This document shows, one piece after another, positions 22,370-26,304 of a DNA stretch of 64,000 nucleotides. The translations under genes were made by a program, and so were the position numbers. The stretch spans positions 1 through 64,000 of the forward strand of contig CAUJDN010000029.1 of NCBI GenBank assembly GCA_963169195.1, in the 5' to 3' direction. Every line of letters begins with the position of its first letter. Positions within the stretch are counted from its first letter, which is position 1. The notes beneath the pieces are model-generated. The model searched no databases. It saw nothing but the letters and a program-made list of their open reading frames with translations, and had not been told where the DNA came from. This stretch comes from Acidobacteriota bacterium (lineage in GTDB: Bacteria > Acidobacteriota > Vicinamibacteria > Vicinamibacterales > UBA2999).

Positions 22370-24160
22370 ATGGTGCCACCCGGCACGCGCCTGGGGCCAT
22401 ACGAGATCCTCGCCAGCCTGGGCGAGGGCGGCATGGGCGAGGTGTATCACGCCCGCGATACGCGCCTGGCCCGGGCGGTCGCCATCAAGGTACTGCCCGC
22501 CGACTTCTCGCAGGATGCCGACCGGCGCGCCCGGTTCGAGCGCGAGGCACGCGCGGTGGCGGCGCTGTCGCACCCGCACATCTGCCGGCTGTTCGACGTG
22601 GGCCGGGACCACGGTGTCGACTACCTCGTGATGGAGCTCATCGAGGGCGAGTCGCTGGCCGACCGGCTGGGCCGGGGACCGCTGTCGCTGGTCGAGCTCA
22701 TCACCCTCGGCACGCAGATCGCCGAGGCGCTCGACTGCGCCCACCGCGCAGGCGTCGTCCACCGCGACGTGAAGCCCGCCAACATCATGGTGTCCGGCGC
22801 CGGGGCCACGCTCATGGACTTCGGCCTCGCGCGTACCGAGGTGCCCGTCGCGGTGAGGTACCACGACGGTCAGACGATGGCGCCGCGCACGTCGGCACCT
22901 GTGACGGCCCACGGCACCATCGTCGGCACGATTCACTACATGTCGCCCGAGCAGCTCGACGGCCGCCAGGCCGACGCCCGCAGCGACGTCTGGGCACTGG
23001 GGTGCGTCCTCTACGAGATGGCCACCGGCCGGCGGGCCTTCGACGGCTCGGCGCCGGCCACGATCATCGCGGCGATCCTGCGGGAGGATCCGCGCCCGAT
23101 CTCCGAAACCGCGTCCGTCATGCCGTCCGCCCTGGATCACGTCGTGCGCACGTGCCTGGCCCGGGACCCGGAGCAGCGCTGGCAGCGGGCCAGGGACGTG
23201 GCGCTGGCCCTCCGGGGGATTACGGCGGAGGACCGTGGCGCCGCGGCCGCCCAGGCGGACACCCTGGTCGAACGGTCGTTCGTGCTGACGGCCCGGCACG
23301 TGCGCCAGCTGTCGGAGCGGAACCCTCGGCTGGTGGGCTACACGCTGAACTACCTGGACAACGGCGCCACATCCGACATCCTGGTCGTCTTCCTTCACGG
23401 CATTGGCGCGGACGCGAGCCGCTTCGAGCCCGTGCTGCGGGCCCTGCCGCAGCGGGCCGTGGCCGTCACCCTCGTCGGATTCGGGCGGCGCGAGCGGAAC
23501 CGCCCGACGCTGGCGTTCGACGACCACTCGCGCGTGCTGCGCGTGCTGCTGCGGCACATCGCGGACGAGTGCCGGCCGACGCACATCGTGCTCGTCGGCC
23601 ACTCGGCAGGGGCCGACCACCTGCTCCGCATGCTCCACGACGAGCCCGGCGCCGGCGTGGATGTGGCCGGCCTGGTGGCGCTCGGGCCCAACGTCAGCCT
23701 CGACACGTGCTTCGCCAGCCGGTTGTACGCCAGGATCGACGCGGGCGACCCGGCGGGCACGCTCGCCATCCTCAAGTCGCTCGCCCAGGGCATCGAGTCC
23801 CTCGAGACGTGGCTGGTCGTCCAGAACTACTTCTCGCAGATGTTCCTCGCCATGGGGTCGGAACTCGAACCGCTCCGCCGCTACGCGGCCGATCTGGTCG
23901 ATCCGTTCCTGCGGCCGGGCGACCCCCTGGCGGAGTGGTACCTGTCCGCGCGGAAGCGCGTCCCGCACGTGCGCCTGGTCTTCTCGAACGAAGAGACCGC
24001 GGCGGCCGAGGCCCTCCTCGCCCGGCACCTCGAGAGCAACGCTTTCGGCGACGACTTCACGGAGGACTCGTTCGTGGTCGAACGCGTCCATCATCTCTCC
24101 CTGTTGGAGCCTGACCTGATCCTGCGGCACGTCAGGGAGGTCATCGCGTCGCTCGGGTAG
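22370..24160 (+). CDS. Ser/Thr protein kinase fused to an alpha/beta hydrolase
   Basis: A 596-residue cytoplasmic protein. Residues ~10-285 are a complete Hanks-type kinase: P-loop GEGGMGEV (18-25), K40 in VAIKVLP, catalytic HRDVKPAN (D133), MDFGLAR, and GTIHYMSPEQLDGRQADARSDVWALG. Instead of the usual membrane helix and sensor domain, residues ~320-596 form an alpha/beta hydrolase with a nucleophile elbow GHSAG (Ser412), oxyanion region FLHGIGAD and a late His in VERVHHLSL. No membrane segment is present. The hydrolase could sense a small molecule or act as an esterase whose activity the kinase controls; both are inference. No partner gene is visible beside it. Confidence 0.85.
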   Translation: MVPPGTRLGPYEILASLGEGGMGEVYHARDTRLARAVAIKVLPADFSQDADRRARFEREARAVAALSHPHICRLFDVGRDHGVDYLVMELIEGESLADRLGRGPLSLVELITLGTQIAEALDCAHRAGVVHRDVKPANIMVSGAGATLMDFGLARTEVPVAVRYHDGQTMAPRTSAPVTAHGTIVGTIHYMSPEQLDGRQADARSDVWALGCVLYEMATGRRAFDGSAPATIIAAILREDPRPISETASVMPSALDHVVRTCLARDPEQRWQRARDVALALRGITAEDRGAAAAQADTLVERSFVLTARHVRQLSERNPRLVGYTLNYLDNGATSDILVVFLHGIGADASRFEPVLRALPQRAVAVTLVGFGRRERNRPTLAFDDHSRVLRVLLRHIADECRPTHIVLVGHSAGADHLLRMLHDEPGAGVDVAGLVALGPNVSLDTCFASRLYARIDAGDPAGTLAILKSLAQGIESLETWLVVQNYFSQMFLAMGSELEPLRRYAADLVDPFLRPGDPLAEWYLSARKRVPHVRLVFSNEETAAAEALLARHLESNAFGDDFTEDSFVVERVHHLSLLEPDLILRHVREVIASLG

Positions 24161-24232
24161 GGCCAGTCGCTTGACATCGCGGCCCGCGGGGTGTATTCAC
24201 GACCACGTCACCCGTCTGGACTGGAGGTCCGC

Positions 24233-25015
24233 ATGTCCATCGTGTGCCCCGTGGGTTTCGACGTCGCCACCCTTCGGACGGAAGTGCAGACGATGTACGC
24301 ACGGGTGGCGGAGACACCTCGAGGCGAGTTCCACTTCCACCGCGGGCCCGAGTACGCCGCACGGCAGCTCGGGTACGATCCGGCCGAACTCGCGGCGCTG
24401 CCCGCGGAGGTCAGCGCCTCCTTTGCCGGCGTGGCCAACCCGCACGCGATCGGCCGTGTCCCCGAGGGAGCGGTCGTGGTCGACGTGGGTTGCGGGGCGG
24501 GCATGGACCTCCTGGTGGCCGCGCGCCGCGTCGGCCCTCTCGGCCGGGCCATCGGCGTCGACATGACCGAAGCCATGCGGCAGCGCGCGAGAACGGGCGC
24601 CCGGGCGGCCGGCCTCGCCAACGTCGAGGTCCGCGAAGGCGACGCCACGCGCCTCCCGATCGAGGATCACACCGTCGACGTCGTCATCTCGAACGGCGTC
24701 CTGAACCTGGTCCCCGACAAGAGCCGGGCCGTGGCCGAGATCGCACGCGTGCTGAAGCCCGGCGGCCGCGTGCAGATCGGCGACATCATCATCGGCGAAG
24801 TCCTGCCGGACGACGCGCTTCGGGACATCGATCTCTGGACCGGTTGAATCGCCGGCGCTCTGCTGGAAGCAGAGATGATCGACGTGTTCGAGCAGGCGGG
24901 GTTCCTGCAGCCGCGCATCGTCGCGCGGTTCGACTGCTTCGAGGGGACGACCAAGGAGCGCACGGCGCGCCGCTACGGCGTGGTCGGGGTGAACGTCCTG
25001 GCGGAGCGGCCGTAA
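24233..25015 (+). CDS. ArsM-like SAM methyltransferase, candidate selenoprotein (in-frame TGA at residue 205)
   Basis: Read through the TGA at 24845-24847 this is a 260-residue SAM-dependent methyltransferase. The ATG at 24233 has GGAGG five bases upstream. SAM motif I is VVDVGCGAGMD (82-91), followed by GVDMTEAM and SNGVLNLVPDK. The TGA falls where arsenite-methyltransferase-like proteins have a conserved cysteine (LWTG-TGA-IAGALLEAEM). The frame then continues with family-like sequence (RFDCFEGTTKERTARRYGV, Cys235) to TAA at 25015. A perfect six-pair hairpin starts 11 bases after the TGA, as expected for a bacterial SECIS. Sec205 would sit at the likely arsenic/metalloid-binding position. 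The alternative is a nonsense mutation giving a truncated 204-residue product. Confidence 0.8.
24848..24877 (+). promoter_or_regulatory. SECIS-like hairpin after the in-frame TGA
   Basis: CTCTGC (24858-24863) pairs perfectly with GCAGAG (24869-24874) around a five-base loop TGGAA. The loop starts 16 bases after the TGA and has G as its second base. Bacterial SECIS elements that recruit SelB have a short upper stem, an apical loop with G in the first two positions, and a 16-37 base distance, so all criteria are met. Lower-stem pairing is weak. Confidence 0.7.
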
Positions 25016-25030
25016 GAGGCCGCGGACGGG

Positions 25031-25118
25031 GAGAACCTGAGAACCTCAGAACCTCAGAACCTCAGAACCCCAGAACCTCAGAACCCCAGAACCTCAGAAC
25101 CCCAGAACCAGAGAAACC
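25031..25118 (+). repeat. GAACCTCA / GAACCCCA octamer tract 3' of the methyltransferase gene
   Basis: About ten eight-base units, GAACCTCA alternating with GAACCCCA, start 15 bases after the TAA stop. The same unit, in sense orientation to its gene, follows the minus-strand gene at 41513-42541. The tract ends just before a strong terminator hairpin. Confidence 0.9.
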
Positions 25119-25956: not shown

Positions 25957-26030
25957 GAACACGGGGGTTCGAAGCACGACGGGTTCGAAGCACGGAGGGG
26001 TTCGAAGCACGGGGGGCGAAGCACGGCGGG
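25957..26030 (+). repeat. GGTTCGAAGCACGG tandem tract 3' of the TonB gene
   Basis: Four to five imperfect units of about 15-17 bases with the core GGTTCGAAGCACGG begin directly after the TonB stop. The core holds the palindrome TTCGAA. The same unit in the opposite direction follows metK at 26170-26304. Confidence 0.85.
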
Positions 26031-26169
26031 TCCAACGCAAGGGACGCTCAGAGGGCGGGACGTTCAGTTGGGGACCGTCGCTCCATCCGCTTCGATCCGA
26101 TGCCGACATCGGCACTCCGTCCATGACCTTGTTGTACCGCACGAGCGTGCCCGGGGCCAACCCCGTCAC

Positions 26170-26304
26170 CCCCGTGCTTCGAACCCCCGTGCTTCGAACC
26201 CTCCGTGCTTCGAACCCCCGTGCTTCGAACCCCCGTGCTTCGAACCCCTCCGTGCTTCGAACCCCCGTGCTTCGAACCCTCCGTGCTTCGAACCCCCCGT
26301 GCTA
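26170..26304 (-). repeat. GGTTCGAAGCACGG tandem tract 3' of metK
   Basis: Eight units of 15-17 bases with core GTGCTTCGAAC on the plus strand (GTTCGAAGCAC in the metK sense direction). The first unit overlaps the metK TAG stop (GTAGCACGG). With the TonB tract it forms an inverted pair around about 140 bases of otherwise unassigned DNA. Of the 349 bases between the two genes, these tracts fill more than half. Confidence 0.85.

Follow-up and report, generated by a model that had tools for sequence, protein, structure and literature searches.

The 64,000-nucleotide stretch of Acidobacteriota contig CAUJDN010000029.1 analysed here (the window) carries what is, on comparative sequence evidence, very probably a functional selenoprotein gene encoding a methyltransferase paralogous to the arsenite methyltransferase ArsM, in a soil-type Acidobacteriota genome. 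The UGA at codon 205 would be decoded as selenocysteine (Sec) by SelB and tRNA-Sec, guided by a short hairpin 16 bases downstream, and the product would be a 260-residue S-adenosylmethionine (SAM)-dependent methyltransferase. Direct reading of the gene from its ATG at 24233 agrees with the original prediction, which was made from the letters of the window, that the frame is broken by this TGA only; 55 sense codons follow it and then TAA. Gene calling with table 11 stops the gene after residue 204 and so loses the reactive residue, here and in the other homologues.

The in-frame TGA and its hairpin

Homologues were collected from the 162 genomes of the order, from genomes of the wider phylum and from further contig loci, giving 32 distinct Sec loci that include one from Chloroflexota (L031) and extend down to about 46% identity. 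Thirty-one of the Sec homologues are full-length and residue conservation was counted on those, while the match in genome G035, being divided between two frames, was excluded from the alignments. The closest matches within the order each contain one in-frame TGA, and the next matches, which are classical ArsM proteins and a few Cys sister forms, contain no in-frame stop. The TGA is found at the homologous codon in 32/32 loci, within the motif LW-x-x-U-I-x-G, and the same codon is TGC or TGT in 15 relatives that are not part of the Sec set. The codon is thus always TGA (32) or Cys (15), which bears out the earlier claim that related proteins have a cysteine at this point. Past the TGA, with the selenocysteine insertion sequence (SECIS) excluded, the median ratio of nonsynonymous to synonymous substitution rates (dN/dS) is 0.28, compared with 0.21 before it; by this measure the segment 3' of the TGA is protein-coding and under purifying selection, in keeping with the 55 further codons of family-like sequence that had been predicted. 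In one homologue, L103 (G370:C79, 6971–8485, plus strand), the Sec methyltransferase frame is open upstream into about 300 residues of another domain, either as a fusion or as a chance frame.

The hairpin (Table 1) begins 11 bases past the TGA, with 16 bases between the TGA and the loop; its position, loop and both distances are exactly those first described. The T-A pair of the loop TGGAA can close a GGA loop. The bacterial SECIS model has a stem of 4–16 pairs, a loop of 3–9 nucleotides with a G in its first two positions, a distance of 16–37 nucleotides from the UGA and a minimum free energy of −7.5 or below (PMC13188914). The spacing of 16–17, the loop TGGAA or GGA and the six to seven pairs found here agree with this geometry, and the best local folds of the homologues lie between −14 and −24 kcal/mol, the window segment being at −17. 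All six core pairs are present in 32/32 TGA homologues and in 0/15 Cys homologues. Among 26 distinct rows, 98.9% of cells are paired, as against 31–58% when one arm is slid along the other, and both-sided changes are seen at four of the seven stem pairs. The stem of L073 is GCCTTC/GAAGGC with the loop CGTGT, three positions having been re-paired, L060 has C-G in place of a G-C pair, and the pair that closes the loop is variously T-A, C-G, A-T or T-G. The fourth codon after the TGA, specifying Ala, is GCT in 31/31 sequences and the eighth, also Ala, is GCA in 30/30, although these codons account for only 7.9% and 7.4%, respectively, of Ala elsewhere in the same genes; by this bias, the stem dictates the choice of Ala codon. 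The hairpin and codon counts are those of related sequences and not of independent events.

The machinery for Sec insertion is complete in the genome that holds the window (G000). SelA (525 bits in a profile search), SelB (encoded by a gene of 632 aa) and SelD (350 bits) are each above the curated cut-off, and tRNA-Sec, with the anticodon UCA, is above its cut-off and is confirmed by ARAGORN, so that all four of selA, selB, selC and selD, for which a check had been proposed, are present. Neither a genome without sel genes nor close relatives with TGC and an unconserved hairpin, the two outcomes named in advance as contrary to a selenoprotein, was what we found. The SelD gene (L026, G000:C93:59054-59977, minus strand) is a selenoprotein candidate in its own right, with an in-frame TGA at the usual active site, MVSCAGUASK.

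Three results speak against a selenoprotein. Folded alone, the window hairpin is not unusually stable, with z = −0.83 and 46/200 shuffles folding equally well. The co-occurrence of selA with the Sec gene is consistent but not discriminating (Fisher p = 0.29 over 162 genomes): selA is over cut-off in 19/22 Sec-gene genomes, with fragments in two more and the exception, G033, being 81% complete, and in 102/140 other genomes of the order, and significance is not reached because 121/162 genomes of the order have selA. Full-length Cys sister forms were noted in four genomes, of which G023, G096 and G102 have no selA match and G094 has one. The third result is that the tree described below separates Sec from Cys forms as single groups with moderate support, 64/80. 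It is the comparison across homologues, unlike the folding of a lone sequence, that is decisive in marking the hairpin as more than a chance structure.

The unremarkable folding would suit a gene broken by a nonsense mutation or a sequencing error, a reading that is excluded for practical purposes by the presence of the TGA in 32 homologues spread over many genomes and families, by the covariation of the hairpin and by the purifying selection on the codons past the TGA. Nothing was found in favour of genome-wide reassignment of UGA or of mere leakiness, and either is hardly credible given the conservation and the complete Sec machinery: of the eight complete called genes near this one, five end in TGA, and each homologue has one in-frame TGA, always at the Cys position and accompanied by a SECIS. 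The selenoprotein that was put forward as a candidate is well supported by the conserved TGA and hairpin, the covariation and the presence of the four sel genes.

Relation to ArsM and to known selenoproteins

The nearest solved relatives are arsenite methyltransferases, and ArsM structures also head the structural ranking of the AlphaFold model (predicted local distance difference test, pLDDT, 83.9; predicted template modelling score, pTM, 0.85), with a Z score of 24.9 and a root mean square deviation of 2.8 Å over 215 residues. Sec205 aligns with the Cys of the ECLGGAL motif, which is Cys224 of CmArsM, and PDB entry 5jx7 is titled C224A. The CmArsM numbers used here for Cys72, Cys174 and Cys224 are taken in part from entry titles. 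At the Cys72 position the 31 full-length Sec homologues have Val, Ile or Thr and never Cys, and at the Cys174 position Gly is found in 31/31; arsenite methylation is therefore not the obvious function. With NF008823, the NCBIfam model for arsenite methyltransferase, the window protein scores 217 bits and falls short of the cut-off of 263, which another gene in this genome (L018) clears with 365 bits. Since Cys is missing at two sites, the NF008823 cut-off is missed and L018 passes it, the window gene is, by these criteria, predicted to be a paralogue of ArsM and not the arsenite methyltransferase of its genome. The original suggestion of Sec at a metalloid-binding position is right insofar as the position is that of CmArsM Cys224, but this protein lacks Cys72 and Cys174, the residues that make up the rest of the arsenic site.

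In the tree, all 31 Sec rows and four Cys rows with the motif SNG group apart from classical ArsM, which has SNC, with support of 100/99. The classical ArsM/AS3MT enzymes (CmArsM 4fr0, CrArsM 5evj and human 8xt7) have the fold, the SAM motif and the C/U-x-x-G-A-L motif in common with the window protein, whereas the latter has Cys72 and Cys174 replaced, Sec in place of Cys224 and no C-terminal domain past the methyltransferase. The Cys SNG methyltransferases (L061, L062, L065 and the haloarchaeal P0002) share the SNG motif with the Sec forms. Three of these, the Acidobacteriota forms L061, L062 and L065, also have the same kinds of neighbour (an ArsR-rhodanese or LysR regulator, a metallo-beta-lactamase (MBL) protein and a major facilitator superfamily (MFS) transporter), and differ from the Sec forms in having TGC for TGA and no hairpin.

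A selenoprotein methyltransferase resembling ArsM is already known as a kind. A review of 2026 (PMC13188914) lists ArsM-like proteins with Sec in the UxxG motif, among them an arsenite methyltransferase selenoprotein (NF008823, listed with Fomenko et al. 2007), and NCBIfam contains three double- or triple-Sec families related to them, namely NF041536, NF041537 and NF047649. The NF008823 selenoprotein, which is compared here by its description, shares with the window protein the ArsM family and the Sec of the UxxG motif (UIAG in the window), whereas the window protein is under the cut-off and has no Cys at the Cys72 and Cys174 positions. The methyltransferase half of NF041536 (ArsM/DUF2284), NF041537 (ArsM/AhpD) and NF047649 (a methyltransferase/UXPK-star double selenoprotein) aligns with the window protein from residue 10 with 190–220 bits, all three cut-offs being missed (203 bits against 575, 220 against 510 and 190 against 460, respectively). 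Members of these families contain two or three Sec residues and are longer in their C-terminal part, whereas the window protein contains a single Sec and stops at residue 260. No member of NF041536 over its cut-off was found in 396 genomes of the phylum. What appears to be new is a single-Sec, stand-alone clade without the Cys72/Cys174 pair, together with the SECIS covariation of this clade and the connection of the gene, among relatives, to a regulon of sulfur type, although part of this may also hold for published Sec-ArsM proteins. As the clade keeps a single ArsM cysteine, in the form of Sec, the role of the Cys224 position would be separable from arsenic chelation, and since relatives provide Sec and Cys counterparts within operons of one kind, the role and the substrate of a lone selenolate beside SAM become testable.

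Genomic neighbourhood and possible acceptors

Frequent neighbours of the gene in the extended loci are an ArsR-type regulator fused to a rhodanese domain, an MBL protein and an MFS transporter, and the Cys-form loci L112, L113 and L114 have the same setting. The nearest solved relatives of the MBL neighbour include persulfide dioxygenases (ETHE1-like), and its best NCBIfam match is the related glyoxalase II, below cut-off. An SQR-III-like enzyme is found in one locus, below the model cut-off, with a second, partial copy recognized by similarity in L097; a TusA-like protein, just over cut-off, and a peroxiredoxin each occur in a single locus. MddA adjoins the gene in L094 (366 bits against a cut-off of 270), and this adjacency is to be taken as a single case because MddA is over cut-off in only 2/22 Sec genomes. 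The ArsR-rhodanese protein is present at 69% identity or more in 13 genomes of the order. Eight of these genomes also have a recorded match to the SNG methyltransferase, in its Sec or its full-length Cys form, and in 8/8 regulator and methyltransferase share a contig and are separated by no more than about 2 kb (Sec forms in G028, G035, G032, G076 and G011; Cys forms in G094, G096 and G102), and linkage by chance is very unlikely. ArsR-type repressors that sense sulfane sulfur are known (PMC12423496).

Further genes were observed near the methyltransferase in scattered loci. A bacterial-globin-like protein with a putative signal peptide lies near it in L089, L094, L103 and L104, which belong to different families. 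Genome G166 has, at L104:5371-6999 (minus strand), a Cys-type SNG methyltransferase joined within one frame to a MerT-like part and a heavy-metal-associated (HMA) domain; the MerTP-like match scores 82.8 bits, below the cut-off of 180, and a Sec-type copy in this genome lies about 0.9 kb away from the fusion. On the haloarchaeal plasmids L135, L137 and L138, similar methyltransferases are directly 3' of an OsmC-family gene, and that of L135 (P0002) has SNG and Cys, with merB a few genes away.

The window protein would keep just one reactive cysteine of ArsM, the substrate-side Cys224, as Sec. We infer that the Sec selenolate, which is a better nucleophile than a thiolate and ionises more readily, may receive, hold or activate a soft acceptor beside the methyl group of SAM. 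Cys5 and Cys235 could serve as resolving partners in the subclade of the window, neither being conserved outside it. The second Cys pointed out in the original prediction is indeed present, as residue 235, but its conservation is confined to that subclade. In place of three-coordinate arsenite, the acceptor may be reactive sulfur, in the form of sulfide, persulfide or another thiol, or else a different soft element. Reactive sulfur may apply because Cys72 and Cys174 are missing and the gene of the relatives lies beside genes handling persulfide and sulfide, and we suggest a sulfur acceptor tentatively. With the two partner cysteines gone, As(III) is less likely to be bound by several thiolates in the manner of ArsM.

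The neighbours favour reactive sulfur, and isolated MerTP-like and merB cases keep metals possible. A Sec-dependent S-methyltransferase whose substrate is sulfide, persulfide or a small thiol, and which acts in a regulon for defence against reactive sulfur, is a possibility to which the constant proximity of the ArsR-rhodanese regulator, together with the ETHE1-like MBL, SQR-III-like, TusA, MddA and peroxiredoxin neighbours, would point. Soluble SAM enzymes of other families are known to methylate H2S and thiols (PMC12904073). The known H2S and thiol S-methyltransferases MddA, MddH and MddM1/2 have SAM dependence in common with the window protein, but MddA is an unrelated membrane enzyme, and MddH and MddM are compared by their SAM dependence. 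On the other side, G000 has no match to the close ArsR-rhodanese protein, there are no sulfur-gene partners beside the gene in the window, and the neighbours that it does have (a kinase/hydrolase fusion, a TonB protein and metK) are not conserved with it, so that the functional context is carried over from relatives by orthology only. About half of the Sec loci examined, that of the window included, are without the sulfur neighbours, MddA does not track the gene, and ArsR-type regulators sense metals as well. That the whole SNG clade is a separate, partly Sec-based family methylating reactive sulfur within an ArsR-rhodanese/persulfide-dioxygenase regulon is a rather speculative extension; if true, the clade would be a selenoenzyme for S-methylation.

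A selenoprotein arsenite methyltransferase would act on As(III) or methylarsenite with Sec205 as the main ligand, the others being small thiols or Cys5 and Cys235. The nearest solved structures and hidden Markov models are those of ArsM, known Sec-ArsM families have Sec in the same UxxG motif (PMC13188914), and both the ArsR-type regulator and the MerT-MerP-like fusion of a Cys relative fit the handling of metals or metalloids. As no member of the clade has Cys at the Cys72 or the Cys174 position, the NF008823 cut-off is missed by the window protein and passed by L018, and the neighbours point to sulfur, this activity is likewise no more than a possibility. Sec is a strong ligand for soft metals, and methylation of another soft element, such as a mercury, tellurium, selenium or antimony species, would be compatible with this property, with the MerTP-like fusion, itself below cut-off, and with the haloarchaeal Cys relative near merB. 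These are isolated cases, however, no metal genes were identified in most of the neighbourhoods examined, and we consider such a substrate unlikely.

Features of the gene and its surroundings

The features of the gene are compiled in Table 1. In the SAM-binding region, residues D84, G86, G88, G90 and D92 are invariant among the 31 aligned Sec sequences.

Table 1. Coordinates of the methyltransferase gene and its features in the window.
Feature	Position	Strand	Basis
Shine-Dalgarno-like GGAGGT, 5' of the ATG	24223–24228	+	Sequence; putative
Selenoprotein methyltransferase gene (predicted), 260 residues with Sec205, TAA at 25013–25015	24233–25015	+	Read-through translation; class I SAM methyltransferase domains; same layout in 32 homologues
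Cys5, conserved in HFHRG subclade	24245–24247	+	Present in 17/31 Sec homologues
Val67, CmArsM arsenic-site Cys72 position	24431–24433	+	Alignment to PDB 4fr0, 4kw7 and the C72A mutant 5eg5
SAM-binding motif I region, residues 82–92	24476–24508	+	Pfam Methyltransf_31/11/25 matches begin there
Gly155 (SNGVLNL), CmArsM arsenic-site Cys174 position	24695–24697	+	Alignment to ArsM structures
TGA codon 205, probably read as Sec, CmArsM Cys224 position	24845–24847	+	Homologue codons; ArsM structure alignment
SECIS hairpin CTCTGC-TGGAA-GCAGAG, arms 24858–24863 and 24869–24874, loop 24864–24868	24858–24874	+	Fits bacterial SECIS model
Cys235, possible resolving Cys	24935–24937	+	Present in 14/31 Sec homologues; conserved in HFHRG subclade only

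A scan of the window from 20 to 30 kb with Rfam gave no match. The upstream gene (22370–24160, plus strand) encodes a fusion of a Ser/Thr protein kinase with an alpha/beta hydrolase. Short tandem arrays are present at 25032–25109, just 3' of the methyltransferase gene, and at 25964–26030 and 26168–26303; their units are the 8-base AGAACCTC (9.8 copies) and units of 15–31 bases with GTGCTTCGA or TTCGAAGCAC, on opposite strands.
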